From: Botryosphaeria dothidea
Taxonomy: Eukaryota; Ascomycota; Dothideomycetes; Botryosphaeriales; Botryosphaeriaceae
NCBI GenBank assembly: GCA_011503125.2
Contig: WWBZ02000010.1
Coordinates: 434,001-498,000, forward strand
Direction: 5' to 3'
Length of the DNA stretch: 64,000 nucleotides
Shown here: positions 17,805 to 49,310 of the stretch, one piece after another
Numbering within the stretch: the first letter of the stretch is position 1
Layout of the letters: the number at the start of each line of letters is the position of its first letter
Made by a program: the position numbers and the translations under genes
Notes under the pieces: model-generated
Seen by the model: the letters and a program-made list of their open reading frames with translations, nothing else
The model's database searches: none
Told to the model about the DNA's origin: nothing

Positions 17805-17922
17805 GGGATTCTACATATTCGCATGTAGGGCCTGGTTTGCTGCTTTTTGACTTCACTGCCATCTTTCGAACCGGCTGTTAACGTTTTACTAGACGCGTTA
17901 GTATCCCATTGCTCCCAGGACC

Positions 17923-19447
17923 ATGGCTGCCTCCGTCGAACACCTTCCCTCTTACTTCAATGAGCGTATACTCGCCGAATGGGATGACTCGGATACCGGT
18001 CTGCCATCCACTCTCGGTTCCTGCTCACGCTACAACAAGCAGGCTGTCGCCTTGAATGCGCGCCTCGACTTCGACAAGATGTGTCTGGAAATTTCTCTGC
18101 CCGTCACCATTCACGTTGGCAATCGCGCCCGCAAATTCCCCTTCTCGTTGATCATATCGCCCCAACACTTCGACAAGCTGAACGCCATATCCCATCAAAG
18201 CGTATCAGTTGGTTCACCTCTGGTGTCTCAGGCAGCTCGTGATGCTATAGTTGGAAACTCGGATCAGCTCGTTCGCGTTCACTTGCGCTTATCGACCAGG
18301 CCCATCGTCGCTATGCCTGTCATTCGCTCCAGCATCGTGAAGCCGACCACTGCTCCTGCTTACGATCTTCTCCTGGGTCTTAGATCTCTGTCCCGCGCAT
18401 CCTGCTTCACCATGTACATAAGGAAGAATGATTTCGCCTTGAAGGGACTGCAACTTATCAGTAACCGCCTTTCTGATGCTACTAAAGATGGCTCCGGCTC
18501 CAGCACCACTCTTCTAAAAGGCCTATTTCCCGGTGCGGACGGTCTTGATGACGGTATTGAAGTGGATTAGAGCACTGTCCGGTTCAATCGCGGCCCACCG
18601 CCCTACGATAATAATGTAACACAATCGACCAAAGTCCATGTACCTGACGCCCAGCCTTTGGCTACCACCAAGCCGACCAGTAACGAGCAGCAGCCTACGG
18701 GTCCCACCAAGCCGACCGATGACGAGCAGGTGGTCGCTGGCCCGACTACTCACATTAGCCCTTCACCCTGGCCTTCCTTGCATGACCTCCTACTCCCGAG
18801 AGCAATCAGCCGAGATACCTGATGACGTCTTATTTGCAGCTCACAATGTTGGTGGCGCCGTCAATGACCACCCCGAGACATGCTCAGACGAGGAAGAGGG
18901 TGCCATGATGCACGCTCGGCAGGACAATCCAATCGTCGCTCGCTCGTCCGACTCTACACGCCAGACCAATCCCGTCGTCGCGCCCTCGTCCGACTCTTCA
19001 AGTCTCAGCGACGATCTCGCCAACTGGCTCTACACGGCCACCGAGCTTGGCTGCGACGTGTTTCAACACCAGGGCCTGCAGCGCAAGCTTGCCTCGCTCG
19101 GCCAGTATGTACGGACCGACAACAAAGCTGCCTTTGACTCCACTCTTGCCTGGTGCTCCGCACTTGTCTTCTTCGACGCACCCGGCACCTCGACCTTGAA
19201 CAGCGCAGCCACTCGAGTCATGGTGGCGGAAGTGGCCCGTCTCATCCGCTGGGCAAACGGCTTCCATCGGGGCGCCGAGATGTGCGCAACGCTCCGTCAG
19301 TCATTCCTGCAGTTGTGCGTCGCTGCACGAGCTGCCACTATACCTGCCCGACACGTGGGTGCCGACGAGGCGTACAAACGGCAGAAATTTGCGTGTGTTG
19401 CTGAAGTGCTTGCGGCATTCGGCAAAGCTGCGCTACCCGGACACTGA
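17923..19447 (+). pseudogene. PPxY-family protein, member 1 (broken)
   Basis: The first frame (MAASVEHLPSYFNERILAEW) is open for 215 codons to a TAG near 18568. The same frame then continues through GPPPYDN, a PPxY motif at 18595-18606, and a TKPT repeat. After a frame change near 18790-18830 the reading goes on from EQSAEIPDDVLF to KAALPGH. The N-terminal domain shares LRSLSRA and F-x-x-Y-I with the intact gene at 45941, followed there too by a proline/PPxY linker and a helical C-terminal domain (LANWLYTATELGCDVFQ versus FRDAVAWLKAAWYVQSD). Alternatively, the two halves could be separate genes. Function unknown. Confidence 0.6.
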
Positions 19448-19713
19448 TAGTCTCATTTCATGCAAAGCGTGCAGTTCTCTGCGATAAGCCTCTATGAGAC
19501 GGCTGTTGTTGCTATCCTCCTGGGTCGGGGTGCAGTTGGTTTCCATTCGATCTCCCTGGTCGGTCGTGTCTGAGTGCACGGATGATGTCGACCATGGCAG
19601 TGCAGCTGCGGTCTCGCGTCCCGGTCCGCCAGCGGGGTTTGAATGAGCTCATGCGTCCGTTTCAGTCATGTTGCAGTCCTGGCTCATCACCAGCGTGCGT
19701 GGTTGGACCGAAG

Positions 19714-20679
19714 TCATCGTGTCCTGCCTTGGCTTCGTCTTCTCATGCGCTCCGCACGCCGGCCCGGACTCTCGTCCTGTTCCTGCTCGTCCTCCTCGTC
19801 GGACGTGAAGCCGCGGACCTCGTCGCCGTCCCAGGACACGGCCTTCAGCCGCTCCCACGTGTCCGCCTCGGCCGCCGCGATCTCCCGGAGACACTCGTCC
19901 CTGGCGTCCTTGATGTCGAGGGTGGCGGCGTCGCCGACTTCGGCGAGCTTCCTCTCGGCCGAGTCGACGACGTCGTCCATGTCGACCTGCTCGTCCATGT
20001 AGTTTTGGACGAGGACCGGCATGTGGGTCAAGACGAGCGGCTGGACGTAGTTGGCGATGAGTGGTGGCGGGAGTCTGTTGTTGTCGTCGTCGCCGTCCTC
20101 GTGCGAGCCTTCACTTTCTGGGTCTTGACCGTGTAGCGCGGTCGAGAGGTGGACGCGCAGGAGTTCGGGCAGCATTCCCGGTAGCAGTTTCCGCATCATA
20201 TCTGGCAGCTGCGTCGCCAGCTCGATGGCGACCATGGCCCGCAGGGCGACGATCATCCTGTTGAAATCGCTGGCGTCGTTTTCACGTTGCTGTTTCTTCC
20301 TCGACCCGGGCAATGCGTGGGTCAGGGGCTCGGATCCGGATCCGGAGTCGATATCGAAGCCTGCCCTGTTCGAGACGTGAGTGCGGCCTCTCGGGCTGGG
20401 CACTGGCCCGTCACCGCTGGCGGCCCTCTTTGCGGCGGCGGCGCTGGCACTAGATGGAGAGGCTGCAAGCAATCGTTAGGCTAGTCACAAAAGGGCAGCG
20501 CAGCGTGTTTCACCTTGTCGAGCCCGCTTACCCGTCGACGTTCCCGTCTGCGGAAGTATATAGGGAGGCGGGGCTTCCGGTGTATTAAAAACCTCCCAAG
20601 TAGCTTCCCAGCCGCGGCGTCCACCTTGGAGGGATGCTAGATTAATATTACTCGGAGCCAATTGATTTGCTGTAGTCAT
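19714..20679 (-). CDS. Acidic helical protein with PPxY motif
   Basis: Two exons are inferred, 20679-20532 and 20462-19714. The intron starts GTAAGC, has a CCTAACG branch point and ends TTGCAG; the joined frame is 298 aa. Exon 1 begins MTTANQLAPSNINLASLQ and ends with EAPPPYILPQ, a PPxY motif. The middle is disordered (SASAAAAKRAASGDG), followed by helices (MIVALRAMVAIELATQLPDM), an acidic stretch EDGDDDNN, a heptad-like segment and a terminal DEEDEQEQDE plus RRAERMRRRS. No family is recognised. It is convergent with the PPxY-family pseudogene, their 3' ends about 270 bases apart. The gene looks intact. Confidence 0.6.
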
Positions 20680-20769
20680 CCGGACGAACTCCTCAAGCGC
20701 TTCCCGGCGGGATGGTGTAAGGTTAGGGACAGGCAGGTAGAATAGGATTTCAGTGGTTCGGCAAATGTC

Positions 20770-21120
20770 TTGAAAGCACCGTACGCTAGGATGAAACGCA
20801 GTAACAGGCGTCAGAGTCGCAGCCGCCTAAGGGCAAATCACACATCCAGGAGCGCTGGTCGAAACTATGAGAACTATTACACCCTCGAGAGAGTTGATGG
20901 TAGCGTGCTAGCGAATACATTCTGCGATACGCGGAGAGATCCGCACCGTAGCAAAGGAAGCGTCCATCCGGTGGATATTGTGGGGCGCCAAGTAAAGACT
21001 GACATATTGAGCGCCGTTAAACCCCTCGTATTCCGCAGTAAAGCGGATAGAAAGTATTCTACGAGAACGTACTCGTTCGAGCCGAAGAGTAATAGAGCAT
21101 TAGGCCCATGCCGTGTCTGA
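20770..21120 (+). other. Possible retroelement pol C-terminal relic
   Basis: The frame contains YENYYTLERVDGSVLANTF, which recalls the Y-x-L-x-x-x-DG-x-x-x-x-x-TF end of gypsy-type integrases, followed by basic sequence. No other pol motif is nearby, so the assignment is weak. Confidence 0.25.
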
Positions 21121-21382
21121 GACTTGGGCGACGACATGGTTCTTGAGAACGTACGAAGATAATTAGCTATTACCCCTTCCAGACATGATTTCTTGACACT
21201 AACTGGAGAGGACAAGATCAGGAGCTGGCATGATACAATCGATTCGTAGTAGCAAGTATAAAAAACGATGCCCCGCTGAAAGCGGTGTTCCCACGCACCC
21301 GGGCTTTAATCAATGCGGGCAGCCCTGACTCGCAGTAACGGACATGCGGACCAACGTCCAGTGTTCCCAACCATCCATCCGT

Positions 21383-21420
21383 TAGCCATCCATCTGCCAT
21401 CGGATGGCTACGGATGGCTA
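21383..21420. repeat. Short inverted/direct repeat
   Basis: TAGCCATCC at 21383-21391 is followed by two copies of GGATGGCTA (21402-21410 and 21412-21420), its reverse complement. A small hairpin could form with either copy. Significance unknown. Confidence 0.6.
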
Positions 21421-21861
21421 GTCGGTCAATCATCGATGATGTTAGGTTGCCAAAGGGTATGGGCATCTGCCGTTCTTGCCGTTCTTATATGCTTGTTGCA
21501 ATCACAGATTCATGCCCTTGAGAATCATCCCATCACTGCACCCTGAGACACGTTGTTGGCCCTTCTGATACTAAGACCGTTCGAGACGCGTATGCATCAT
21601 CCTAGGTCTAGTAAGCCATGAACTATCGAATTGGCTATCTGTGGTTATTGATGAAGATAATTCTCCTACCACGTCCTTCGATCCATGAGTGTCCCTGCTA
21701 AGACAGCATCGAATAGTTTCATGCCGTCGAAGCAAATGTGTAAGGTCAGCCATATGTACAGGCGACCGCCTCCTGCTTTGAGTACCCTCTTGCTGATACA
21801 GTTAATTTTTTTAGCTGTTTCCTGCCGCTGCTTTCTGTCTTTCTAGCCAAAACAGGAATGC

Positions 21862-22787
21862 ATGGCCGTTCTCCGACGTTCTCCACATTCTCTGGCCAAT
21901 CTTGCCAAGAAACCAAGAGCTAAAAAATCACGAATTATTCCGGGCTCAAAGCATCCGGTATATGAGCTTCTCAGCATCTGGCTGACTACTATGGACCGCT
22001 TCATCCGCCGTAGTATGCTAGAACCTTCGCCCGCCACCTTGAAAATGCCATCCAGTACGCCAGAAGAGTTAGCAGAATCATCTAAGCCTGACCTCCCCGT
22101 CAGATCCACGGAGCACTCAGAGTGCGGCAGCCCATACACAAGCCATTGTATTTTCACAATTCGGTGGGACAAGATTCGCCTTCATGGCAAAGCTTTGCAT
22201 GTTCTAAGCTACCGGCCACGTCACAAGTGCCAGATCGGTACCAATAGGAAGCTCTGGTGGATATTTGACCATGAAGCGGACCTGGTCAATGACCAGGGCT
22301 ACCGCTTATGGGTCTGCAAGCTCTGACACTTAGTAAAGGACTACCACGAAGGCGTGTACTGTGGGGAAGGGACAACACACCAGGCAAACCATTTGTGGAG
22401 GAAGCATAAGATTGTTTCAATTCAACGAAGCCCCCGTTGGTAGCTTCATCATCAGGGAGCTCAGCAAGATCCACGCCAGGCACACCGTCGACTTACTTTG
22501 TTGCTGCTCCATTCATCGATATCCTGTTCAAGCAGGACTACATTGATTTGATCGTCACAACAGACCTTTCCTACCTCCAGGCAACTCACCCACGGTTCCG
22601 CTCTCTTGACATCGCAGGTGGAGATGGAGCTCGGCCAGTACTGCCTCAAAGCGACAGTACGCTGAGCTCATGGATCAGATCTACCTTCCAAAAGAGGCGT
22701 ACCATTGTCAAAGACATGCTCGCTAATGCCCGGAGCAAGATCAACATTATTATTCTTGTAGACAGCAGTGGCAATGCATTTCCGTGA
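21862..22787 (+). pseudogene. hAT-family transposase relic
   Basis: The reading shows a BED-type zinc finger: WWIFDHEADLVNDQGYRLWVCKL, a stop, then YHEGVYCGEGTTHQANHLWRKHKI with the C-x-H spacing of hAT elements. After a frame change it continues FIDILFKQDYIDLIVTTDLSYL, then FRSLDI, then LPQSDSTLSSWIRSTFQKR and LANARSKINIIILVDSSGN, the usual start of the hAT catalytic part (DLWTS-like). A stop ends it at 22787 and the RNase H-like core and C-terminal dimerisation domain are missing. It is dead, with at least one stop and one frameshift. Confidence 0.7.
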
Positions 22788-23213
22788 ACGCACCGGATGC
22801 GAGCCCTCACACTCACGGCTTAGCGTGGACCTGGACGCATCATTCCTCGCACACGCAGTCCACGTTCCGGTCCCTGGAGCGCCAATGAGACTTTCGTGCT
22901 GAGGCGGATTCCAGTGAGCGGGAAGGATGATTCGATACCGGCAATGACTTCCATACAAGTCAGGGTACTCAGAGTGAAGGAAGCATCTCTATGACGAGCA
23001 ATTGTGGGCTCCGTAGCGGCTTCGCTAGAGCAATGCAAAAGACAGGGGCCACGGGCACTGAAGAAAAATCGCCAAAAGCGCCGCCAATCGCTCTGTCCTA
23101 CGAAGCCGTTCGGCCTGCGTTCGCACAATGAGCCAGAAACACAGTCAAAAATAATGAATAAGTGTCTTGATTGTCCTATACCCACTCAAGGGAAACCCCA
23201 ACACGGCTTTCCA
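22788..23213. other. Intergenic, no gene recognised
   Basis: No convincing frame; likely the region downstream of the UCH gene and the decayed hAT end. Confidence 0.4.
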
Positions 23214-23979
23214 CTACTCCTTTGTGTTTGGATCCTTCGATGCGGACGCTCGTTGTTGAACTAATGCCATGAGGCTTAGCTGGTTACATTTTTCGCCTAA
23301 GCGGCTGATGAATTCTTTGATCACTCCAAGCCCTGGTTCTGAAAGAACGCCTTGGCCATGCTCGAGTACCACACCTGTATCTACAGGGCCGCCACTGTCG
23401 CCGTCAAGTTCATACATATGACCACTCTGTCTCGACTTCACCCAACACGTAAAATGATAGTCGACCTCATCTTCCAAACTATCAGGAGTATCGGTTTGAC
23501 CCTGCCAAGCAGCCTTTTCATAGATGGAAGCAAGTTCCTCAGAGTTATTCAGAAGCGCTGAGCGATTCTTCGGTTCCAGATCCAGAAGCTGCGCCAGGAT
23601 ACTTCCATTGACTTTCGTCACTCAGTTAGCAAACACATGCAGCAAAATCTCGCTCGAATTAATGCCCACCGATTGAGTTCTTGTCGAGGCCGTTAAGAAC
23701 GGCATGAAGGACAGCGTAGAGACCGCATGCATTGTCGATCGTTTGCTCAAGCCATATAACGTTCTCGTCAAATCCCTCTCTCGCATCATGGGATATGTAG
23801 GTCTCCAGCGTTCGAAAAGTCAGAATGGCGGCAACCGCTGAATCATCGGGCGTATCGATATCGACCACGTCGTTAACGATAAGTGAAGGCGGAGCTCCGA
23901 GCTCTCGAATTAACGATGTGAATATCTCAGGGTCGGACTCGAGTGGGAGAAATCGTGTGGCGTACTGTTTCGTACTCAT
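23214..23979 (-). CDS. Ubiquitin C-terminal hydrolase (UCH, peptidase C12)
   Basis: Two exons are inferred, 23979-23670 and 23620-23214; the 49-nt intron (GTGGGC to ACTGAG) restores one frame of 238 aa, close to the 220-240 aa of Yuh1/UCH-L3 proteins. It starts MSTKQYATRFLPLESDPEIF. All active-site positions are visible: Q79 in EQTIDNACG (oxyanion), nucleophile C85, H159 in VDYHFTCWV and D176 in YELDG. A variable acidic loop lies near residues 36-50. The enzyme class removes small adducts from the ubiquitin C-terminus in cytosol or nucleus. The start is the ATG beside the conserved first strand; an upstream ATG at 24045 is less likely. It looks intact, unlike most neighbours. Confidence 0.85.
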
Positions 23980-24045
23980 CTTTGTCTCTGCTGAAAGAGG
24001 GGTTCGGGCGGGGCTAGATGCTTCATATAGCCGGTAGCTCGACAA

Positions 24046-24499
24046 TCACGTGATAAAAATCATCATCTGACTGGTAATACCTAAGTAGGTACAGCAGGAT
24101 ATTAGATTGAATGGAGATCAATTAAGAAATCTTCTGTACTTCTTAGGTTTACCATGTCCGCAGACGAAGATGATGGTTGCATATTTGCAATTGTTGGCAT
24201 TCCGCGGCGCGCTGCGTGCGCACACTGTATATCTGCTTGACCTTTTGTTTCTAGCCACCTTTGCAGCGAGCGCTTCGTTGCGCTCAGTAATATCGCCCCA
24301 CTGCGCAGCAGCGACGTCCAGCGAGCCGCACACGCAACATAAGAGGCAACGCAAGCAAGGTGTTTAGAAAAAAAGGCAAGCTAGGGCGTCTGGCGGACGC
24401 GCCCGCGCGTAGCCTTGGACGGCTGGGACGGACTACAAATTATTACATCAAACTCAATAATATATCTATAAGACCAGAAAGAGTATTCTCCGCACTATT
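24046..24499. other. Intergenic, no gene recognised
   Basis: Short frames only. Contains the 3' flank of the ankyrin gene and the upstream region of the UCH gene. Confidence 0.4.
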
Positions 24500-26822: not shown

Positions 26823-27660
26823 GGCGCCAAGGCGCTTATTATGTCGCCAGCAGGTAGCGTCTTGGTAGCTGCTAAAAGACCAAAAGAAGAGATTACGGCA
26901 TATTACACTGTGCAGCTGTGGTCGCACAGCAACATCGACGTAGGTGGCGCCGGCGAGCGTCTAGTGAAAGTGAGGCACCTAAATCGGAAGTGCAGGGGCT
27001 ATGATAGGACGGGGCCGCAGTGTGATAGGGTCATGATGGAATCTGTGCTTGATCAGTCGGGATAATAATGAATGTGACTCGATTACTTGATTCTGTCGGC
27101 GCTTGTGGCGTTGGATCCCAAGGAGCGCGCCAAGGCACTAATTTCGAGTTCTCAGAATTAGCCGCTTGGCGGTGTTTGAACCCTGCCACCGTTCACATGA
27201 CAACCACTGTCAAAGCCGCTACAGGCCATGATGGAGGGAGGTGGGAAAGATAATTATTGAATAAGGCTGGCAAACGAATGGGTATGATGCTCTTGCCAAG
27301 CCTTGCTTGTTAAGCCAGTCTTTGCCTTAGTAGTAAAAAAGTCTACATATGCACGCAAACGGAGGTGTCCGTTAGTGCTCATGGCCTCTAAAAACACCTC
27401 TCTCCATCAGGATACTTCAGATCCATCGCCAAGACGAAATTCTAAGCATGAGCCGCTTTTGGATATTGGGTCAATGCATCGTCTGGATTCTGCGGTTATG
27501 TTCTATCTGAACTTATTGCCAAGGGAAGCCTTGCTTTTATATCACACCATTTGCGGCCAAGTATCTTCGTAGTATGACCGAGGAATCAAAGCATTTAAGA
27601 GTGAACACCTCTTCACCTCGTGAGACTGTGTAAATCAAACTCATCTCGAATCGCATCAGT
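26823..27660. other. Intergenic, no gene recognised
   Basis: Divergent promoter region between the ankyrin and nuclease-like genes. A frame at 27379-27572 (MASKNTSLHQDTSDPS) is possible but has no supporting signature. Confidence 0.4.
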
Positions 27661-31156: not shown

Positions 31157-32214
31157 AAGAGTAAGATAAGTTGTGATTACAACTACCGGAGAAGGATGAC
31201 GGGGCTCGCTTAACGTTTTAAGCCACCGACGGTAGAATGATTAACCTGAGTGACACTGAACAGCCACTGGTCTGCTATGGATCCTGGGATGCAAAATAGC
31301 TCACGCCAAAACTAACCGCAAGGGAAAGTGGCCCGCGCAGGACTAGCCTCCAGCACTGCTGTTGTAGGTTACACATGCATTTTAGTATTTTACGCGTCGA
31401 TCATCTGCGACGTGCTTTTAAATTCTCTCGCTATAGATTGCATTGGGACTGTAAACTACACGTCGCTTTAACTTGGCGGCTGTGGTCCTCGGGCCCTCCA
31501 CCCTCTATTACGTAACATAGTCGGATGCGCGACGTCGAGGTTTTCTATTATCCCGCCCTTCTTTTCAATATTCTTCCACTGCATGAATTTCGTGCGACCG
31601 AGGCTGAGCACATGGCGCCCCCGTCCGCAACTGTATTTTCCTCCGTGTGGCGACATTGCAGCCTCTCTCGGCATTGGTGTTACACTTGGGCTGCCATGAC
31701 GACTCGAATAGGGTCATCGGCCTCCCATGCGATTGGTATTAGTCTCGTCGAGAATGTCGCGGGCGGCGTACCAGGCAGACGACAGCGCGGCTAGGCAGCG
31801 GCTAGGCTTCGAGGTTTAGATAGGAGGCGGAACGGCCCGGCCGGGCCATAGCGGTCGGATGATGGCGCGAAGGAGGGAGTTCTGGGTGACGTGTCGCGCG
31901 TCGGCCCTAAGCAACTGCGGCCGAGATCGGGGCAGCGGCAGGCGCTCGAGCGGGGGAAGCGGCGGATTCTAGTTGGGTGGCGGCGCTGTAGATCTCCCGC
32001 GCCATCCCTCGCGTCCATGTCCCCAACCTCCTCCATTATCTCAACCTCGCTCCCCAGCTCTCTCCATCTGGCCTTCTCCTCTCCACCTCCGCCCATCAGC
32101 ATCCATCGGGGTTTCTCCATCATTTGACTAACTAGCGTAGTTGAGCGCCGTCAGCCATCGTCCTGTCGCTTCCTCCCCCTCGATCGATAACATGTCAGTC
32201 CTCTTCCTACAATC
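31157..32214. other. GC-rich intergenic region, no gene recognised
   Basis: Frames near 31525 and 31790-32127 lack signatures. A possible first exon with ATG at 32191 (MSVLFLQSS) overlaps the shared upstream block that follows. Confidence 0.35.
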
Positions 32215-32248
32215 GAGTCAAGGCTGCTCGACCGAAAGCCTAGAGGGT
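32215..32248 (+). promoter_or_regulatory. Shared upstream block, copy 4
   Basis: GAGTCAAGGCTGCTC (32215-32229) is followed by AAAGCCTAGAGGGT, the same pair seen upstream of the PPxY-family genes. Here it lies upstream of the RING-patatin gene. The first word recurs at 32521-32535 without the second. Confidence 0.4.
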
Positions 32249-32303
32249 AGCAGGGTAGGTTGCGGCATTATTGCGCCTCGACGAGACAAATGGCTGGAGG
32301 TCT

Positions 32304-32490
32304 ATAGGGGCCTGAAAGGGTCGCCGTTACGCGGATCGCCACACATTCTCGCAGTATGTAGAGAGATACCACGAGCAGGTTGGTAGTACCTGGCGTGTAG
32401 GGGCCTGAAAAGGTCGCCGTTGCGCGGATTGCCACATGTTTTCGGGCACGTAGAGAGATAATGTAAGCAGGCCATGCTTCGTATACCTGG
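32304..32490. repeat. Two tandem units of about 93 bp
   Basis: GGGGCCTGAAA begins at 32307 and again 93 bases later; the units share GGTCGCCGTT, GCGGAT-GCCACA and GTAGAGAGATA. Differences are mainly transitions. The pair lies between the two copies of GAGTCAAGGCTGCTC. Confidence 0.7.
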
Positions 32491-35276
32491 CACAAGTATT
32501 TTCTTCTTTCGGAGAGCGCGGAGTCAAGGCTGCTCGGAATTTATCAACCGCCCGCATACCAAGATATTACGCGTACTTCTAAGCCCTCGACCACGCAGCC
32601 CGAGACGGATTCGAGTCTGGCGCCGTCAAAGGCGGATATCCGTAAGTACAAGCCGACCGATGAGCGGCGTGGACTCTTAACTAAATTTTCCCTACTTTTC
32701 TATCAGCGCCCTTCGACGCTAGCGTCGCGGAAGCGAGGTTACTAGGCGATGTCGGTGCAGCTCTTCATGAGTTAGCGCGCGACCCCAGGGACCTATGGCC
32801 GACCTTGCTGACTCGCTTCCGCGAACTCCGCGTCCTCGGCCTCCAGAAGCACGACAGCCCCGAAGTTCGATCAAAGATCCTTCGGAGGCGAATAGTCGCC
32901 ATATCCGGCTCCACACACGCTGACCGGCGTGCATCGCGCACACTACTGTCTGCCGGTCACTCAATCGCCTTTTTTGACTGTTCGATCGAGAACTTCTGCG
33001 CCGGAGATGAGCTGTTTGACTTCATTAAGTCGTCTCGACCCGTCGGCTTCTCGTTGAAGGAGTTTCCAATGCACCTTGGGGAACTCCTTAACGTGATGCC
33101 ATCTCAGGCCTGGCTATGGCATACCATCGCGCCGCTTGTTGCATCAACACTATTCCTTGCTACGTACCCACCGGAATCGCATTGTGAGCAATCCCTCCTC
33201 CCCCCCCCCCCCCCCCCCCCCGCTGCCCATTCGTCCCAGAGCTGACTCATCGCTCGTAGACTTTGACCCTGCCACCGTCTTCTCCCGCTTCTACCGCAGC
33301 CGATGCGAAACGGCCATGATAGAATATATAATTCACCAAGACGTGCGGAAGAAGTTCGTCGCTGCTGTAAGAAGTGATTTTATTGCTATGTTCCGCACTC
33401 TTGTCTCCGGGGAAGGGAGCACGGCTGCGCGCTTGCATGTAGACAGACTAAGGACGCTTCCTTCCTTGTGCGAGCTGAAGAGCCATCGGGCTTGCTTCTG
33501 TTGCTTGATGCGAATGCCAGAGAGAGTCCTTACCTGCGGTCACACATTCTGCGACACCTGCGTACAAACCTTCGGAACTCCATCTAGGTCCGAGAAATAC
33601 ACCTTCATGCTCGACTCCTGCTTGCTTTGCGGAGAGTCCGATAGCAGCGCCCTATTCAGCTTCGTGCCTCCTACAGCTGGCATCAGGATCCTCAGCCTGG
33701 ACGGCGGGGGCATCCGCGGAGTGATAAAGTTGGCCATCCTCAAAAAAATCCATAGTGAGTTCTTACGCTTTCGTCTCCCGTTTGCAAACTACTTCGATTA
33801 CGTCTGCGGTACCTCTGCTGGTAGGTCATTCTTCCCCCGCGTTGGCTGCGCTGTTGAAACTAATTATCGCAGGCGGTCTAATCGTTCTCGGGCTGTTTCT
33901 CATGCAATGGACGCCGGAGCAATGTCTGGACAAGTTCGAAAAGCTGGCGGCCCAGACCTTCAGACGCCCTGAAAGACCAAGCTCCTTCTCGCGGCTTCGG
34001 CAGACATTGTTGTCGTACGTAAAGGATTGTAAATACGAGTCGACCACGATAGAGGATACATTCCGCACTCTAGCCAACAACGCTCCAACCCAGATGTTTA
34101 ACCCACTCAGGTCCGAGACAAAGGTAGCAGTGACCACCACCACCGCAAGAGAAGTTCTTCCGTGCCTGTTTGCAAACTACAATGGACCCTGTCGGCCTCA
34201 GGGAATCGGCTACCAGATCGTTCGTGCAAAGAGCCCTAAGGACGACGTCCTCGTTCATGAAGCGTAGGTCTTCCCCACCAGATCTCGATATCTTGCTAAC
34301 AAAGCATGAAGGGCTTCGTGTACCTCTGCTGCACCATGGTAATAGAGCCAGGCACTTGCTAAGACGCATGCTAAAAATCAGCAGGTTCTTCAAGCCGAAG
34401 GTGCTCGAAAATCTAGGCACGTTCCAAGACGGCGGGCTACAGCACAATAACCCTTTAGGAATCGCCCTCTGCGAGTATCGATACATCTGGCCGGACAAAG
34501 GTGAACCTGATTTCGCTCTGTCGGTAGGATCTGGCACCAACTTCAATGACGCGCGTGCAGTCTTCGAGCCTCAATCGCCCGTTCAAGATGGAACACTGCG
34601 CCGCCTGTTCCAATCGTTCATGCGGAATACTGACGGGGAAAAGGCGTGGAGAAATTTCATCAATTCGCTCCCGGAGAATCTCAGACACCGATATCATCGT
34701 CTGAACATTAATATAGAAGGCCAAGAACCAGACATTGACGATGTCTCCTCTATGGAGCGTTTAAAGAGCCAAGCAGAGCAGTATATTGGCTCCTCGCTTA
34801 TTATAAACCCGGTGCGGGAAGCCATGTTTGCTTCAATGTTCTACTTTGAGCTGGAGGACATCCCGCTATATCGTGATGGCTCGTATCAGTGCACTGGGGT
34901 AATATTCTGCCGGATGAACCTTTGTAAGGAAGCAAGAAAGGCCTTCTACGAGGACCTGATATCATCCTCATCTTATTTCCTTGTAGATGGCCGGCCGGTG
35001 CGCTGCGCTGAAACTATCCCAAGGGGGCTACCATTGTTCAGGAAACGTATAGAGTTCAAAGCCCCGGATATGGACTACCAAGTGTCAATCACAGTCGGGG
35101 GCATGCAAACCTCACACTACATCAGCGGCTTGCCAAAAACGCTCAAGCAACTCATTTCTTGCCAAAAACTCGATGCTCCTTTCGGACGAGTGAACCACCA
35201 GTGTTTTGGGAGGCGTCTGCCTGCGCTACCGCTGAAGCGTGGGCGAGGAAGGCCAAAGAGCGGTGAATTCTTTTAG
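32466..35276 (+). CDS. RING-type zinc finger / patatin-like phospholipase fusion
   Basis: Five exons are inferred: about 32466-32641, 32707-33183, 33260-33820, 33873-34263 and 34352-35276. All junctions are in phase; the first intron has GTAAGT and a CTTAACTAAA branch point. A zinc cluster CFCCLMRMPERVL-TCGHTFCDTCV precedes the patatin domain, which shows LSLDGGGIRG near 33700 (oxyanion loop), CGTSAGG across an exon junction near 33815 (G-x-S-x-G nucleophile) and FQDGGLQHNNPL near 34430 (catalytic Asp). Patatins hydrolyse membrane phospholipids and are recurrent effector domains of fungal NLR-type systems. The true start is unresolved: no in-frame ATG lies in exon 1. Otherwise it looks intact. 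Confidence 0.7.
33200..33221. repeat. Homopolymer tract of 22 C
   Basis: A run of 22 cytosines lies inside the second intron of the RING-patatin gene (33184-33259). Its length is likely variable and could be mis-called. Confidence 0.85.
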
Positions 35277-41305: not shown

Positions 41306-41581
41306 AGATGACAATCAGCAGTCTGCATAGTGCTATTAATGCTACTAGCATGTTTCAACTAGCTTTTCACCTCTAACAGAAGGGCGTCCAGAGGCGAGGC
41401 GACCCTCACACTACTCGTAATATAGATGACCTTTCCAACTTCAAGCGGGACGTCCGATATGGAAGAAACACCGGGTTCAATTTTCAGGGGGACAAAATAG
41501 GTGGGCGTTGAGGTTGGGTATATCATATTGGTTTTGAATCGAACGAGGCCGAGCCGTTTCCCTTCGAAGACCTACTGCAGC

Positions 41582-41803
41582 TTAGCCGTCATCCTTTCCA
41601 GAATAGACTTTGTGAGATACTTTGTGATGCTCCCCCAACTCCGATATCCGCTGTCGCACCACATCGTCAACCTTTGCGAACTCGGTGCCCTCCGTGCCGC
41701 CGAAAGTCCACTTTTCCTCCAAACCGTCCGCTAATTCCGATAAAACTGCTGCTGCATCGGGCCCGAGATCCTGCGGCTGCAGGTGCGGCTGAGTGTCAGA
41801 CAT
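41582..41803 (-). CDS. Short hypothetical protein
   Basis: A 73-codon frame from ATG at 41803: MSDTQPHLQPQDLGPDAAAV, then SELADGLEEKW, ending VYSGKDDG. The amphipathic helix and acidic composition look protein-like. The frame is open far upstream (to 42097) without signatures. No family recognised. Confidence 0.3.
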   Translation of the reverse strand: MSDTQPHLQPQDLGPDAAAVLSELADGLEEKWTFGGTEGTEFAKVDDVVRQRISELGEHHKVSHKVYSGKDDG

Positions 41804-42535
41804 GGGGCGGGCTGTCGTGCCGATTATCACTGCGTTGGCCTGGTGAGGACTCGACGTAGTCCTGGCGGGGCGGGACGACACGCACGCGGGGCAGACGTGT
41901 TCGGAGTCTTGGAAAATCCGGCGCCGTGACGGCGATGCCCGTTCAGGCTCGGCTGTCCATCCGCTAAACCCACCTCCAAGTCTGGCGCTTGATGCGTATC
42001 CAGCTGTGGCAACGAAGGCCTGGCCATCGTCGTCTGTGTGTACTCTCATGCAATGTCCGCTTCCGCCGAAAAGGAATGCTTGGGTCACTGGGAGCAATGC
42101 CAGGTTCGAGTCCGAATGTGATGGTTCAAAGATGGATGCACGCCCGCAGTGGGCTGCGCCGCTTCTTGTAACTGTCGTCTACCTTCACCGGTTCTGCACC
42201 CAGACCTTGTACGACCATTGTTGCCTGAACGAGCTGCAGGACTGATTGGGCCATGCAAAATTTCCCAAAATGGGCATGCCGTTGCTCCTCGTCCTTTAAA
42301 TTCAGGCCGCCGGTCTCTCGAATCACGGCCATTAGCAAAATGGAAGAGCCCGATGTTGAGTGGCGAGGCTGGTCTGTGGTATATTTACCCTTAATTCCTC
42401 AGCGGAACAATGCTTGACCCACCACGTAGACAGATGCCTTGATTCAGTTTGGCCTTCTAAAAATGCCAATGTCAAAGGTAATGGGATTCCGCCTCCCCGC
42501 TGCGGTTGACGGCAGATGCTGACAGATTCAAGAGC

Positions 42536-42996
42536 GATGGCTGGGATCCAATCGAGGCGTTGAGGAAGGTACGCTGCGCGTCTGGCTGTTTAGATTTACG
42601 CTGGTGTTCTAATGGAACTAGGATAAGGAGTTGAAGAAGAAATTGGCGGAGGAGTCGGAAATGTCAGAGAAAAAGTGGGAGGGAGAGCTGGAGCCGGAGT
42701 TTGGCATCGATTTGTTCAACGCTTGCATGGTCAGCCGCATTCATTTTGCTTCGAACAGAGCTAACACATCGTAGGCTGGTGCCAAGGCCGCGCTGGCGCG
42801 CATCGAAAAGAAAGACGGCAGAACGTACTCGAGGTTCGAGGAGATCCCGGAGGATTCGCTTTATTATGATGAAGCGTTTAATCTTTACAGGGGATATGGC
42901 AGATTGGCGAATATGGTGCTGGCGCGGACCTGGTACTTGGAAGGTGGATGCAACAAAAACTACGGTGCAAGATGGTTGCTCCGGTATCATATGCAG
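42536..42996 (+). pseudogene. Orphan three-exon gene fragment
   Basis: Three phase-0 exons stand out: 42536-42568 (SDGWDPIEALRK), 42622-42729 (DKELKKKLAEESEMSEKKW, ending FGIDLFNACM) and 42775-42996 (AGAKAALARIEKKDGRTYS, then LYYDEAFNLYRGYGRLANM, ending RYHMQ). The introns have GTACGC/ACTAG and GTCAGC/CGTAG ends, the second with a GCTAAC branch point. After 42996 a GTGAGA donor leads into the inverted F-box-like fragment, so the rest of the gene is missing. No in-frame start is seen upstream. It looks like a once-normal gene cut by rearrangement. Confidence 0.45.
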
Positions 42997-43009
42997 GTGA
43001 GAAGTATAA

Positions 43010-43632
43010 GCACGTGAGATTAGGATGCTCTGCTTGAACCAGCGATCCTCCCGCCGCTGCGCGTGGACTTTAAAGACGACCCCTGACAGTTGCTTCAGTT
43101 CCTGCAAAGCTTCGTAATTCTCCCAACCGTCATCGATATCATTTCGGACTATAATATCGACCGACCTCAAAAAACGGCATTGTCTCCGGAGCTTCTTCAG
43201 TCCATTAAGCTGGCCGATGCGTGCAGTACGACTTACAGACAGATAGAGGACGAGGGTGACACGCCTAAGGTGTCTTCCAAGATTGAGGCCGAGAAAGTCT
43301 TCAATCCAGATGGCCTCTAAGATAATGTTGTTGCGTTCCGCGAGCAATGAAAGGACTTCCTGGCGTGTCTCGCGGTTGACTCCAAGTAATCCGTGTCCAT
43401 CTATCAAGCGCCGCGGGGAGCTGGGGTTACGCCCGGCTCGCAGAAATTTACCGCAGGACCACTGGACGTATTCTTCGTACACGAAAAGATACTCATAGAC
43501 TCTGTTCCTTAATTCGGCAGGCAAGTCGAGAAAACGGAAGGTGCCCGCCCCGGTAGAGTGATTGGTGTCGATTTTAAGAAATTTGCGTATCTCTTCGAGT
43601 GCGTATTCGTCCGCCTTGTTGTCTACTTTCTA
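43010..43632 (-). pseudogene. F-box-like protein fragment
   Basis: Reading from 43632 gives DNKADEYALEEIRKFLKI, then FRFLDLPAELRNRVYEYLF (the common N-terminus of fungal F-box-like or DUF proteins), then GLLGVNRETRQEVLSLL, IEDFLGLNLGRHLRRVTLVL and ELKQLSGVVFKVHAQ. Past about 43010 the frame runs into the antisense of the fragment at 42.5-43.0 kb, so the C-terminus is lost. Upstream, the same frame continues through a TAG into the kinase-like ORF. Confidence 0.5.
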
Positions 43633-44859
43633 GGACCAGGTCCTACTTAGGAAGTCTGCACGACTCGGCCCCCCGTGCAATACGTAAGTGCCTAAGTGAA
43701 GTGTTCTCAGGTACGCCTCCCCCGCTGCGCTGATGAGGATGTTGCCGGCGACACTGGATAACCTCCGACCCAACCAGTCCGCATTGGCGTCGTGAAGAGC
43801 ACGGATCGAGGATCGGATCTGGGCTAGCCAAATCCTCCTCTGTTGCATAGAGACATGGCCGACATTCACTTGCGCCAAGGTCGGGTTTGCTTTGCTAGGT
43901 TCGATCCAGTCGTAGAGTACTCCTTGCACTAGTTCTCCGGCACGCACGAGGCCTCTTACGAAAGGCGCGCGAATCCGGATTGCCTCCTCTGAGAACGTTA
44001 TCCTCTCCCACTCATCCAGCATCTTAAAGAAGCTCGTTTCGCTAGGTCCGAAGAAGCGTCCATCAGGCACGTAGCACCCGAAACATCCGCCGTTTAGCAT
44101 GACTCGGTAGTGGACACCCGAAATCTTCTCCAGGACCTCGATGGCATTCCAGTTGTAGGACGGGATCCTCCAGCTTCTATAATCAAGCCCTTGAAAGAGG
44201 TCTCTGATAATCCGCTGGCCACAGGTCGGCCGTCCGAATGAGAGGTGCCCGTTGGCCTTATGAAATGAGATGGTCCAGGAATGGAGGAAAGACATTAAGC
44301 TCCTCTCGTCGTTACAGAAGTCGTTAATCAGGTGGCGTGCCTCGCTTGCAAAGAATTTCGCAAGCTCTGCATGAATGTCGTAAACGTAGGGGCTGGGGGC
44401 AACATTCTTAAGGGTAGTTACAACGGTGGGGAAGAGGAACCCGCGACAGCGGATTTGAAAAACCCTTCCGCCACGTGCAAACCCTACGATAAGTTCGTCC
44501 GTTTCTTTATAATATTCGATATCGGTCGTCTCAAGTTGCTCGGGGTATGTGAATGACCACTCCTCGGCAGCATCGGTTATGAAGCACTCGCCAGGCATAG
44601 TATCGGAAAGATTAAAGATTGGAAGAACTGTGATTGATGAAAGTAAAGCTCCCGTAGAAGGCATTCCAAAATAAATATTCCGAATTCGGATGCGGCGGCG
44701 TCGGCCAACTGTCGAGACGATGTTTTTCACCAACAGTCGTAGATGATCGATCATCTGTCCCATGTCTAGTTCATCAGTGTTAATGGTAACCGCTAGGCCG
44801 CGCTTGCGGCGCAGAGTAGGGCTCTCCCACGGAGTATGACTAGGCGCTGAGAGGGTCAC
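43630..44859 (-). CDS. Fungal kinase-like protein with degenerate catalytic loop
   Basis: A 409-aa ORF. The C-terminal part has the layout of fungal kinase-like proteins: FVRGLVRAGELVQGVLYDWI, then RRIWLAQIRSSIRALHDANA, then a segment aligning with the catalytic loop and following strand (DWLGRRLSSVAGNILIS then AAGEAYLRTL). The usual H-G-D is absent and no IDFGG follows, so catalysis is unlikely. The N-terminal 200 residues are unassigned (LRLLVKNIVSTVGRRRRIRI). The frame is uninterrupted, so it may still be expressed as a pseudokinase. It ends at a TAG directly abutting the F-box-like fragment. Confidence 0.5.
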   Translation of the reverse strand: MTLSAPSHTPWESPTLRRKRGLAVTINTDELDMGQMIDHLRLLVKNIVSTVGRRRRIRIRNIYFGMPSTGALLSSITVLPIFNLSDTMPGECFITDAAEEWSFTYPEQLETTDIEYYKETDELIVGFARGGRVFQIRCRGFLFPTVVTTLKNVAPSPYVYDIHAELAKFFASEARHLINDFCNDERSLMSFLHSWTISFHKANGHLSFGRPTCGQRIIRDLFQGLDYRSWRIPSYNWNAIEVLEKISGVHYRVMLNGGCFGCYVPDGRFFGPSETSFFKMLDEWERITFSEEAIRIRAPFVRGLVRAGELVQGVLYDWIEPSKANPTLAQVNVGHVSMQQRRIWLAQIRSSIRALHDANADWLGRRLSSVAGNILISAAGEAYLRTLHLGTYVLHGGPSRADFLSRTWS

Positions 44860-45751
44860 TCGCTTCTAGCCGCTACAGCACAGAGGGTTCTCTAGGTTTG
44901 TCCTGGGGCCAGTGGTGCTACATTTATCTCATCTTGTCCATTGATGGCAAGTACATTCCCCTTCCCGCATTCGACGGGTTGTTGGAAACCTCTCGATGTG
45001 ACGGAGCCCTGTCGACGGCCAAGGAGGGGAAACCGGAACAAAGCCGCCTTATCAGTCAGTCCCTGTTCGAAGGCCGCGTATGCGAGACCGTCCCTACCCA
45101 CCCCCGGGCTACGTGTGGGATTTGTCTAAGCGCCGAGTGACCTGCGCACTCGGAAGCGAGGGCGGCAAAACCACCACCAATGAAATCCGACGCGGCAGTG
45201 AAACCCGGCTCCGGGCGCGCTAAGACCACCTGCACGACGAAGCACGGGTTGCACGAATCATAATAATGTCTCGGCTTGTCGGCACGCCCCCGGGACGCAG
45301 CCGATATCGCCTGATGCCTTCCCGCACGCTGAGTGTCATTTAAGTTGTCCGACGCGCCAGATCATCGATGTGTTGTCGCCTTCCACAACGCAACATTCAC
45401 GCGTGCACCACAGACCTTGTCTTGTTACCATTATCTATTTGTATATGAGCACTCCTATCTCGTTAATTTTTAACTTGTAAATAGATTTTTTTCCTTCTCA
45501 GCGCGATCTGCGTTTCTTCGTTTTGGAATCCTCTTCGATCGTTGGAAATCTGGCTCGAACTCGCACCATTGTCCCTTCCTTGAGGGTGTTACCGTGGCTT
45601 CGCCGATGCCCCCTTAATTGCGGGCAGCCGCGTTTCGCGCTATAATCCTCTTGGCTAGGGGCAATCGTCGATTATGTCACATTCTTTCGCAAGTTGTGAT
45701 TTTTCGACTAATGTGCGAGGTCGACTGGACTACCGATGATCCGGAGTGAAC
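44860..45751. other. Intergenic region, no gene recognised
   Basis: No signature in the frames seen. It becomes T-rich after 45420 and leads into the shared upstream block. Confidence 0.4.
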
Positions 45752-45800
45752 GAGTCAAGGCTGCTCTCACGTCGCGATGCTGGTAAAAGCCTGGGCGGGT
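45752..45800 (+). promoter_or_regulatory. Shared upstream block, copy 2
   Basis: GAGTCAAGGCTGCTC (45752-45766) and AAAGCCTGGGCGGGT (45786-45800), followed by GGGATTCCCACATTC, about 140 bases before the ATG at 45941. Best-preserved copy; copy 1 shares the run into GGGATTCTACAT. Confidence 0.5.
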
Positions 45801-45940
45801 TGGGATTCCCACATTCTTCGGAGGGTGAGGGCACATCTTTCGAATAAAATTTTAATAAAATTTAATTATTGATCCTTGCAATCTTAGTTGTCGTTAGTCT
45901 CAGCACGCCGCTCCTTCATCGGTGATCACCCGAATCGACC

Positions 45941-47533
45941 ATGGACTCGCAAGTCGAGGAGGGTTGCACCCATCAGTTCTTGGTGAAGTGGCGCGATAAT
46001 CAGACAGGCGGTGTCCGATTCCTGGGGCAGCTCTCCGGGTCTCCGCCTGAGATGGGAAGTTTGTTCCTGTATTTTGGATACGACAGAGCTGGAAAGAGAT
46101 TCCTAATGAATTTTCATCTTCAGCTTAAGATCAATGCTGCATCCAAAGGAGTGAGGAATTTCTTAGTCCCCCCGGTGAAGGATTTGGAGATGGAAGTTGC
46201 GAACCCCCTGTCTGAGGTGAATACCGCCGAGTATGATCCCCAGGCGGCTCGAGAATTCCAAAAGGCGGGAATGGACAGCTCCTCCAAGACTTTTCGCCTT
46301 CTGTTTTCACTGAAAGAGCCAGGCTACGTCACGATGCCTCTACAGGGGTTTTCGAAAGCCATAAGCACGAAAAGCAAAGGGTTGCTGCTGAGCCTCAGGT
46401 CGCTGTCGCGCGCAATGGACTTCGAAATCTACCTTCCCTACTCTGGAGAGGAGCATTTGAAACCCTTTCGCGACTGCTCGGAGATGTTGCGCCAGGAAGA
46501 ACTGGAAATGCCGAGCGTCGACTACAACGCGGCGTACCACGGACGTGCGTGGGGAAGAAACGAATGGAGCGTCTATCATCTGGAAGCCGAAGAGACGCTA
46601 CAGGCCATGTGGAACCCGATTGTCGACGACAGTCCACCCTCCTACGAAGAAGCCGTTCAGTCCAGCTCACCGTCCAGCCCTGGGGCGCTTCGGTCGAAAT
46701 CGGATCGACGCGGCATCCAGGTGGAGGGCCAAAGCAAAGCAGTGATTCCAGAGAAGCATGTAACCTCGCCAGCTTTGCCAGATTCAGGAACCTGCGTGTT
46801 CACCGCTGCTGGAGAACAACGCGGTCGTGGGGGTCGCAAGCGCAAGGCCGAGGCGGTTCCCTTGGGTGACCGCTGCAGCGAGCACGTAGTGCATCCCAGG
46901 ACGCAATGGGACGGGGAAAAACCAACCCAGAGCTCCGTCGGGCAGCCAACTGCACCTGTGTCTCAGAGAGCTCCCTCAGGTTTCCAGTCTGCGTCCATTC
47001 CTCAGAATTCAGTTATCAACGGAGGCCCCAACCGCCGGTTCTTCGACGATGTCCAGTACAATTGTTTCCGCGACGCTGTTGCCTGGCTGAAAGCCGCCTG
47101 GTATGTTCAGTCGGATGCTCATGAGGCCTTCCTGCCAGAGTTGGGTATGCTCGCGCAGGCTGCGCGGGAGCATGACCTTGTGCGATATGAGCATACCAGG
47201 GTCGACTGCATGTACATGCTGTGTCAGCGGGAGCGGAACTCGGGATCTTCAACGCCTGTTCATGGCAAACTCTCGGTCGACGATCGGGTCTGGCACATTA
47301 TCGATTTTGTCAACCGAGAAGTTGGTGCTGGGAGCGATATTGTAATACTGGATGAGTTGATCGCCCTTAGTGACGTGGCGCGGGCTTGGAAACAGGTTGA
47401 CCGATTTAGCAGGAATGACGAGTGGCAGCACTGGCAGCTTATGTTCACTACACAGATGGCTGTTTGTATATTAGTGGCCCTCTATAGGGATGAGCGAGAA
47501 TGGCTTGATCCGATCACGACACAGACAATATAA
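45941..47533 (+). CDS. PPxY-family protein, member 2 (intact)
   Basis: A single-exon ORF of 530 aa starting in ACCATGG. Domain 1 (residues 1-200) is strand-rich: CTHQFLVKWRDNQTGGVRFL, then SLFLYFGYDRAGKRFLMNF, ending LLLSLRSLSRAMDFEIYLP. A linker carries the PPxY motif DDSPPSYEEAV at residues 232-235, low-complexity serine, and a likely nuclear signal GRGGRKRKAE. Domain 2 (about residue 365 to the end) is helical: FFDDVQYNCFRDAVAWLKAA and EWQHWQLMFTTQMAVCIL. Broken relatives lie at 17923 and 48448 with the same motif order. PPxY motifs bind WW domains such as those of Rsp5/Nedd4 ubiquitin ligases; the actual role is unknown. Confidence 0.7.
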   Translation: MDSQVEEGCTHQFLVKWRDNQTGGVRFLGQLSGSPPEMGSLFLYFGYDRAGKRFLMNFHLQLKINAASKGVRNFLVPPVKDLEMEVANPLSEVNTAEYDPQAAREFQKAGMDSSSKTFRLLFSLKEPGYVTMPLQGFSKAISTKSKGLLLSLRSLSRAMDFEIYLPYSGEEHLKPFRDCSEMLRQEELEMPSVDYNAAYHGRAWGRNEWSVYHLEAEETLQAMWNPIVDDSPPSYEEAVQSSSPSSPGALRSKSDRRGIQVEGQSKAVIPEKHVTSPALPDSGTCVFTAAGEQRGRGGRKRKAEAVPLGDRCSEHVVHPRTQWDGEKPTQSSVGQPTAPVSQRAPSGFQSASIPQNSVINGGPNRRFFDDVQYNCFRDAVAWLKAAWYVQSDAHEAFLPELGMLAQAAREHDLVRYEHTRVDCMYMLCQRERNSGSSTPVHGKLSVDDRVWHIIDFVNREVGAGSDIVILDELIALSDVARAWKQVDRFSRNDEWQHWQLMFTTQMAVCILVALYRDEREWLDPITTQTI

Positions 47534-47616
47534 GTTAACCGTTACAGATTTTCAACGCCACATGCTCGCCAACTTGTGCTCTACTTGACGAGGTCACGCT
47601 ATTACGATGAAGTTAA

Positions 47617-47880
47617 TTAAATTGTTTCCGTAATATCATTCCTTGGGCGTGGATCGGCATCTACCTGTGACGGCGGGCCTCTTCCAGGCTTCGGCGTCGC
47701 CGAATTTACCTTAAAGCGAAGAGCGAAGATGGCAATAATTGAAGAAGGAGCACTATCACGTGAGCGTGCGATGCATAAAGGTCTGTTACCTCCAATAGTT
47801 GTGCATTGGAACTTTAAGCCGACTACAAAGACCAAAGCACTATCGAACGAGTTGTGGTAATATGAAGTAGAGAAGCTGAT
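47617..47880 (-). mobile_element. LTR retrotransposon remnant (LTR end and primer-binding region)
   Basis: On the minus strand: CTCGTTCGATAGTGCTTTGG, then CTATTGGAGGTAACAGACC, GCATCGCACGCTCACGTGAT. This is the same series of blocks as 13677-13990, and its start matches the R/U5-like part of the LTR at 59.2 kb. Transitions separate the copies. Probably a sol-LTR-to-leader scrap of one family; no coding region remains. Confidence 0.5.
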
Positions 47881-48337
47881 TGCCTGAAGAGGCAAAGCGT
47901 CTACGACTTAACTTATGCCTGACACCAAAGCAAGCCTTAAAAGGAACGGGCCGTCGGCTGAGCGGAGGTCCTCCACCCGAAAAGGCTTTTCTTTTTTCCG
48001 TCAGTCTCAGCTGCTTCCATCCGCCGCATCACCATTACGCCTCGCCCGTCACCACCTTCTACATCTCATTCATATCCATCCATCACCATTGCGCCCTACG
48101 ATCTATCTTTAGAACGCTTCGAAGCGTCTTCGCTTGCTCATGACTTCGCCCCTCTGTTAAGCGCTCCTTCAAACCCTTCCGAGCTATCCTCAACCCACCT
48201 CTCCATCACCAGCGTCGTGCGGGCTCTCCGGCCGTCCGTCTGCCCCGTGTGTTGTGCCGGCGCTCCTGCTACGCGCACGTCCGCCAGCCCGCCGTTGTGC
48301 AGACGCTCCTGCTCGTCAGCCTGCCCCGCTGGTTCTC

Positions 48338-48376
48338 GAGTTAAGGCTGCTCGTCCCGAAGCCTGGGTGGGCGGGT
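48338..48376 (+). promoter_or_regulatory. Shared upstream block, copy 3
   Basis: GAGTTAAGGCTGCTC (48338-48352) then GAAGCCTGGGTGGGCGGGT (48358-48376), 72 bases before the ATG at 48448. Confidence 0.45.
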
Positions 48377-48447
48377 AACCGACACGGCTACACGCTACGC
48401 TGTGTCGGGGCTTTATTTTGATCGCTATCAAGAATTAGGTTTTGACC

Positions 48448-49310
48448 ATGGCCGATATTCCCGTTCAGGGTGTAGCGCTGCGGCAGCTCTTTGCTCATCA
48501 GGCTCTAATTGGATGGCAGGACAAGCAGAGCGGCCTCTACTAGCACCTCGGGTGTCTCTCCACCGCCGAAAGCAGCAGTGCCAAGCTGATGTTCTGCATC
48601 GACTCCTCCGCTGATCACATCCTAATCCATTTTTATCTCCCCATAAAGGCACGGCCCTCCAACCCGAAGAGCGTAAAACATATACATCTTATCATTCCTG
48701 TCGAAGATCTCCGCCTCGCTGTCGATCTCGTCGCCGTCCGCGATACGCCGATTCATACAAGGAGACAATTGGAGAGGGATGGCATGTCGTTGGATTCTCT
48801 GGTCGTGTATACCAGCTTTGAAGTGGGGAGGCCTGCGTACACCGTAATGCCGCTGGGGTCAAGGCCTGCTCAGACGAGGGTCGTTGGTCCGCCCGGCCAG
48901 CTGCTGCGTCACCTTCGGTCATTGACGGAGAGTCAAGCCCTCGACGCTTTTTTAAGCTTCGGAACCGTCTCAAGCCAGTTGGAGGCGGTCAGCAATGACC
49001 TAAGGCAGGGCATTATAAAGACTCCCTTAGTGGACCTGGACGCCATGTACGCAAGAGGTATTCGAGGTAGTATCAATGCGTGGGCGCACTATGTCTGCGA
49101 TGAAGCAGATCTCCCTGCCGCTGCGTGGAATCCCTTCATCGATATCGACCCTCCACCACACGATGACGTCGTTTCCCATGGCCAAAAGGATGGTGAACCC
49201 AACAATACCCATCAAGCAATTCCCCATATCAGTGACGACTATGAGAAGCTCGAATGGAGGGTAGCCCCCCTTCCCATTCGCCAGTCGTATTTCAAGACTG
49301 AGGGCCAAGC
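48448..49310 (+). pseudogene. PPxY-family protein, member 3 (broken, truncated)
   Basis: The frame starts ATGGCCGATATTCCC and reads LFAHQALIGWQDKQSGLY, then TAG at 48541-48543 (codon 32), then continues open: HLGCLSTAESSSAKLMF, HILIHFYLPIKARPSNPK, LLRHLRSLTESQALDAFL. It aligns with domain 1 of the 45941 protein (W-x-D-x-Q-x-G, LRSL). The linker has AAWNPFIDIDPPPHDDVV, so the PPxY tyrosine is His here. Domain 2 is absent: from about 49310 the DNA belongs to an antisense gene remnant. One nonsense codon plus loss of domain 2 mark it as a pseudogene. Confidence 0.6.

Follow-up and report, generated by a model that had tools for sequence, protein, structure and literature searches.

A predicted structured RNA element precedes most copies of an undescribed PPxY protein family in Botryosphaeria dothidea

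To our knowledge, few structured cis-regulatory RNAs are known in eukaryotes. In fungi, the portion of PMC5640933 available to us describes 15 motifs, with HDV ribozymes, SDC, amd, ies6, hexA, SART-1, an AU-rich hairpin, snoRNA, group I and ribosomal-protein entries, of which the hexA motif also precedes hypothetical proteins, and the corresponding portion of PMC8216456 reports 17 structures. Among adaptor proteins, the alpha-arrestins, or ARTs, are reported to target transporters to the ligase Rsp5. Here we describe a locus that touches on both kinds of system: a 64,000-nucleotide stretch of the Botryosphaeria dothidea genome (contig WWBZ02000010.1, positions 434,001 to 498,000; hereafter the window), in which three genes, beginning at 17923, 45941 and 48448, are by their sequences members of an undescribed multi-copy protein family of Botryosphaeria-type fungi. 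We consider it rather probable that the whole is best explained as a Botryosphaeriaceae PPxY family with a shared splicing-control RNA and an adaptor role for WW-domain ligases.

Ahead of each of the three genes lies AAGCCTGGGYGGGY, at 17791, 45787 and 48359, as part of a conserved element that adds to what an earlier description of the window, made from its letters alone (the sequence-only reading), had contained. Genome-wide, AAGCCTGGGYGGGY occurs at 24 exact places and its reversed pattern at none; the core motif with three further bases and up to two mismatches gives 111 matches against 31 for the control. The element measures 65-105 nucleotides and consists of GAG-UCAAGGCUG-CUC, a spacer, AAAGCCUGGGYGGGYGGG, a few bases, a hairpin of variable sequence and a run of G (GGG). 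The spacer between the conserved blocks falls, across type-A copies in the genome, into two length classes, the long class often with an extra small hairpin. A covariance model, R1, built from 22 copies, finds five matches in the window at E<1e-4, belonging to the three named genes, a fourth copy of the family and one weaker element of type B:

17765..17848, plus strand: type-A element of the 17923 copy, with stem GAG/CTC, loop, AAAGCCTGGGCGGGTGGG, hairpin and GGG (R1, 57.3 bits).
21252..21334, minus strand: type-A element of the fourth copy, with G-C, not A-U, as the outer pseudoknot pair (R1, 39.8 bits).
32212..32278, plus strand: weaker type-B element with a divergent hairpin part (R1, 26.2 bits).
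45749..45848, plus strand: type-A element of the intact gene (R1, 58.8 bits).
48335..48429, plus strand: type-A element of the 48448 copy (R1, 59.6 bits).

The predicted fold is an H-type pseudoknot, in which a GAG/CUC stem encloses an AGGCU loop that pairs with AGCCU, followed by three G-tracts, the hairpin and a fourth G-run. In an alignment of 56 matches (overlapping-locus duplicates and type-B copies included; 49 distinct rows) 91.6% of cells are paired, a value reached by none of 500 shuffles and falling to 28-57% when the partner columns are slid by one to three positions, although this count leans towards the model because the alignment was fitted to it. Four of five structure measures lie above every one of the 500 shuffles, the exception being the count of pairs changed on both sides (7 versus 5.6 in shuffles; 49/500). 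Changes on both sides occur in all five hairpin pairs, and the outer pseudoknot pair is A-U in 37 rows, G-C in six, G-U in three and something else in two. A comparison that uses no fitted alignment gives the same direction, with hairpin arms pairing over 7.1 bp within their own copy and over 5.0 bp when swapped between copies (36 copies, permutation p 2e-4). Evidence from the first stem's fourth pair is weaker, with 26 of 44 standard pairs where 18.8 were expected (p 0.013), and pairs farther outward in that stem give no signal.

A fourth G-run of at least three bases is present in 36 of 37 copies. The pattern of a G-quadruplex (four G3 runs) occurs in 30 of the 37 and such a quadruplex in none of the 37 minimum structures from ViennaRNA, whose quadruplex model restricts linker length; a G-quadruplex in the element is possible but receives no support from folding. 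These 37-row tables exclude L018, mutated by repeat-induced point mutation (RIP), and the 21252 copy, near-identical to L084, and include L017 (30.5 bits), in which the element lies behind its gene; the hairpin comparison omits L081, which lacks the fourth G-run, and thus has 36 copies. From the A1/A2 alignments L053, a motif match without an element, and L049, a duplicate of L037, were left out.

The element is closely associated with the family. Among the 38 elements scoring at least 35.7 bits, 30 are followed on the same strand by a family coding match (E<0.01) within a downstream search range of 1000 nucleotides, or less where less sequence was available, and none by family coding sequence on the opposite strand; two have an upstream coding match, which belongs to a neighbouring copy. 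The eight without a coding match are L045 (E 0.069), L046, L035, L037, L077, L084, L081 (E 0.034) and L093. As to genes lacking an element, none was found within the 1.4 kb searched at L019, which is intact, only a weak type-B match was found at L023, and the partial or broken L017, L024 and L067 have no upstream element. In an all-against-all comparison the element is the part of the gene most often still alignable as DNA, despite mutation of the duplicates. A covarying structure at a fixed position before one type of gene is what would be expected of a structured cis-regulatory RNA, and we infer this function for the element.

The position of the element within the transcript was examined in the 16 of the 22 A1/A2 loci with an assignable start codon, which excludes L035, L037, L038, L039, L045 and L046. 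In all 16 genes the interval from the hairpin to the start codon contains a YAG acceptor and a site resembling a branch point, as against 18.6% of equal-length upstream windows and four of 16 reverse complements, and in three genes the acceptor abuts the ATG. From -250 up to the acceptor the 16 genes contain 44 ATGs in total, compared with one after it, and consensus donors are found in six of the 16 upstream regions compared with 30% of shuffles. Since branch point and acceptor precede the start codon and ATGs are so distributed, there is strong reason to place the element at the 3' end of an intron in the 5' untranslated region (5'UTR), just upstream of its branch point and acceptor. In the window these predicted sites are:

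17878..17892, plus strand: predicted branch point (TTAAC) and 3' splice site (TAG) of the 17923 copy.
45869..45887, plus strand: predicted branch point (TTGAT) and 3' splice site (TAG) of the intact gene.
48418..48438, plus strand: predicted branch point (TTGAT) and 3' splice site (TAG) of the 48448 copy.

Other parts of the leaders are conserved as well. Type-B copies lie farther upstream in several subfamily-2 loci (the second branch of the family, described below) and were recorded at L045:1826-1890(-), L047:1738-1818(-), L027:2567-2630(-), L039:1693-1763(-), L094, L091 and window positions 32212-32278. Those of L045, L047, L027 and L039 each have a type-A copy downstream, oriented the same way; GTAGGT replaces the type-A hairpin in four of the seven, and the L047 copy is directly behind GTAAGT. 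No family coding sequence was found behind the 32212 element (tblastn, E 1e-3), beside which, at 32310-32540, are a second GGAGTCAAGGCTGCTC arm standing alone and a stretch, GGGGCCTGAAA..GGTCGCCG, that is repeated twice. A third conserved stretch, in which a hairpin precedes CTGGGG and then TCTG or a similar sequence, is present in seven of 22 leaders searched (L033, L035, L045, L051, L052, L054 and L056, of subfamily-2 type), about 110-255 nucleotides upstream of the core motif. The type-B copies and this third stretch suggest that structure may extend along much of the intron in these genes.

Location before the branch point suggests splicing control, and we propose, with moderate confidence, that the element governs splicing of the 5'UTR intron and hence gene output. 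As the same element stands in the same position before many diverged members, one factor could act on all of them, and the most economical trigger would be a trans-factor that recognises all copies alike. This factor might itself be a family protein, which would provide auto- and cross-regulation in the simplest closed circuit, the RNA binding this calls for being hypothetical. A bolder form of the proposal, which we regard as doubtful, is that the element represents a new class of eukaryotic intronic RNA switch, in which some 35 paralogous loci, intact or broken, would share one RNA code and one factor, perhaps the family's own proteins, would sense the pooled product and set the splicing of every copy. 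Such a dosage-sensing circuit could persist where RIP is active, since the copies remain alike in no more than a short DNA segment.

Two other functions of the element were considered. Its upstream location and invariant sequence blocks would suit a DNA-level promoter or transcription-factor site in which structure is secondary, but a hairpin whose sequence varies from copy to copy with pairing kept, and compensatory changes in the pseudoknot, are unexpected for a duplex binding site, and the fixed position ahead of an acceptor also makes this improbable. The compact pseudoknot and near-invariant core recall a small-molecule riboswitch or self-cleaving ribozyme in the 5' leader, and fungal thiamine pyrophosphate (TPP) riboswitches are also located in introns. 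We judge this quite improbable, given that a search of Rfam 15 with 10 of the 24 motif loci finds nothing up to E 1 and one with the window nothing at gathering score, and that the genes behind the element form one paralogous family without a metabolic theme.

The proteins that would be controlled in this way are encoded in the window as follows:

17923..18570, plus strand: first (N) domain of the 17923 copy, closed by a TAG at 18568-18570.
18595..18606, plus strand: PPPY codons of the 17923 copy, in the original frame after the TAG.
18638..19447, plus strand: frame of the 17923 copy with the helical second domain, shifted relative to the first frame.
20560..20871, minus strand: decayed N-domain remnant of the fourth copy (tblastn E 6.6e-4 with P0015; profile E 1.9e-5).
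45941..47533, plus strand: intact gene, with a predicted PH-like N domain (about residues 2-189), PPSY (residues 232-235), a basic RKRK and a helical C domain (about residues 365-517).
46634..46645, plus strand: PPSY codons of the 45941 gene.
48448..49401, plus strand: broken copy, its N domain with a TAG at 48541-48543, and PPPH at 49150-49161.

The sequence-only reading had described these as a three-member family, with one intact gene and two broken by single stops. The 45941 gene is indeed an uninterrupted frame of 530 aa, and homology of the three first domains, whose absence had been named as refutation, stands. A family profile recognises them at E 8e-55 (17923) and E 4e-67 (48543), having been built with these copies included; without self-matches, tblastn of paralogues gives E 4e-15 for the 17923 copy and E 4e-41 for the 48448 copy, and the 45941 protein as sole query reaches 17923 only at E 0.088. 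Translation likewise confirms PPPY, PPSY and PPPH in the linkers, of which the PPPH of the 48448 copy is not a PPxY. A helical second domain had been reported for the 17923 and 45941 copies and as missing at 48448, which agrees with our searches: at 19022-19423 it matches L025 (E 2e-10, tblastn frame 2), and at 48448 none was found by translation, profile or tblastn. Breakage by a single TAG holds for the 48448 copy as far as the stop itself goes, and both TAG codons are present; in the 17923 copy the second domain lies in another frame, which calls for one or more additional breaks unless an intron went undetected. The membership of three was too low, since a fourth, heavily decayed copy is present on the minus strand of the window (element 21334-21252, remnant 20871-20560), and many more exist elsewhere.

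Searches for the family covered the window's own genome (51.7 Mb, 78 contigs). The 45941 protein gives 24 matches at E up to 1 in 19 places, one of them doubtful, with 19 matches in 15 places at E<1e-5, and a query from the second branch adds ten places through its 19 matches. In subfamily 1 (13 rows, some of them partial) the N domain is combined with PPxY, a basic stretch and a helical C domain. Members of subfamily 2 (nine rows) share the N domain and a basic stretch, together with an invariant SPPSYDEL and a C part that is coiled. The N domains of both co-align (22 rows), and the subfamily-2 profile recovers subfamily-1 members such as L071 (E 1e-15). A PPxY is present in the longest frame of 21 of 24 rows, or 20 of 23 distinct loci; in L017, L066 and L067, which lack it, the longest frame is not the N-terminal family frame. 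Among the 19 database relatives of subfamily 2, all except P0017 (18 proteins) have PPSYDE. Given these frequencies, the motif looks to be under selection. An acidic residue ahead of it and DEL behind it fit what we take to be the consensus of WW-domain ligands, and recruitment of an Rsp5-type ligase appears likely. The proteins would most likely be nuclear or cytosolic adaptors, in which the N domain selects partners and the PPxY recruits a WW-domain (Rsp5/Nedd4-type) ubiquitin ligase.

Structure prediction makes a PH-like N domain probable. That the order of domains matches no named family had also been stated earlier, and this is upheld as far as searches of Pfam (a library without PF26095) and of PDB sequences reach, neither of which gave a convincing match to a named family. 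One database protein, P0012 (B. dothidea SLS57_009063), carries a precomputed PF26095, which may be the name for part of this family. Among the matches listed in literature searches on fungal regulatory RNA, accessory-chromosome PPxY families, Botryosphaeria, and PPxY with Rsp5, neither the family nor the element is described in the portions available. Nor does any of the best 20 of 308 papers matched by four sequence strings of the motif contain two of these strings, although a paper with two would have been ranked at the top.

The subfamily-2 profile retrieves 19 proteins from the protein database, with named sources in Botryosphaeria dothidea, Diplodia corticola, D. seriata, D. intermedia, Macrophomina phaseolina and Neofusicoccum ribis. 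Database protein P0005 (B. dothidea) is 99% identical to L030 over 62% of the query. Relatives of L030 in Diplodia are 65-67% identical, those of L027 71% in Macrophomina and 68% in Neofusicoccum, and that of L065 63% in Macrophomina; in every case the next paralogue is clearly less similar. Such orthologues in other genera, 63-71% identical for these three subfamily-2 lineages, indicate that the family predates the genera and speak for vertical inheritance. The best reading of the PPxY family is that it is lineage-specific.

The sequence-only reading had suggested that the family could be mobile or conflict-related. A mobile or selfish cassette of element and gene, with the element as a recombination or priming structure, would account for the many copies, broken ones among them, and for a RIP-mutated duplicate and the clustering of copies: 13 of 22 exact 17-mer matches are on C4 and C6, two contigs that together account for 4.3% of the genome (binomial p 6e-13, with the two contigs picked after the counts were known; exact matches only, those with two mismatches having been retrieved in part, on C4 and C6). 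We nevertheless find this very improbable. No shared flanks were found by blastn among 21 loci (without L046, L049 and L053; same strand only, up to 1.5 kb per side), which share little DNA beyond the element, short upstream stretches and some coding stretches, so the family is not called a transposon; the cross-genus orthologues and the acceptor retained between element and start codon also argue against a cassette. Contig enrichment and the RIP-mutated duplicate are compatible with a fast-evolving family. That duplicate, of 3.7 kb and 86% identical (L018 versus L012), differs by 496 substitutions, 476 of them C-to-T or G-to-A and 404 of these in CpA context. The RIP footprint covers the whole duplicate including the element (G000:C6:988771-989463 in L018 versus C6:414488 in L012). 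In addition, L037 (G000:C4:811632) and L049 (C11:258697) are identical over more than 1 kb around the element; with no family coding match detected behind L037, the pair is, from its sequence, a recent duplication of a decayed copy. The TAG and TAA stops in the broken copies fit RIP. That the TAG codons are instead functional, through stop-codon RNA editing or read-through, is hardly credible: a single TAG stands within a long frame and A-to-I stop editing occurs in other ascomycetes, but the 17923 copy also has a frame change, the 48448 copy also lacks the second domain and a PPxY, and RIP, clear in this genome, is able to create such stops.

Three neighbouring genes in the window were assigned by eye from their motifs: a frame at 16443-17492 (minus strand) that we take to be DDE-transposase-like, a gene at 33136-35276 (plus strand) that presumably combines RING and patatin-like parts, and one at 50380-52732 (plus strand) that presumably combines HET and NACHT-like parts.

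In comparison with described systems, the proteins resemble the alpha-arrestins in that a beta-rich N part precedes a PPxY through which a WW-domain ligase could be recruited, and the PPxY motifs expected of an alpha-arrestin are present in the family. They differ in that the N domain is predicted to be PH-like and is followed by a basic stretch and a helical or coiled C part, and no arrestin Pfam model appears up to E 1 among the matches listed (in the third search, the best 25 of 32 families). Proteins with the PH superfold (PH, RanBD, GLUE and others) are candidate relatives of the N domain. The element resembles the fungal intronic and 5'UTR cis-regulatory RNAs (the TPP riboswitch and those of PMC5640933 and PMC8216456, as far as the available portions describe them) in that its structure is conserved, is located within a 5'UTR or intron and goes with a single type of gene. 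Comparison by description only, not by sequence, found no motif tied to such a family in those portions of the two papers. Here one structured RNA is tied to a large paralogous family, and its copies can be read side by side, so that structure, gene and splice site test each other. If the proposal is correct, shared splicing control of a gene family becomes directly testable, and an undescribed PPxY family gains a handle in the form of its regulator and its docking partner.

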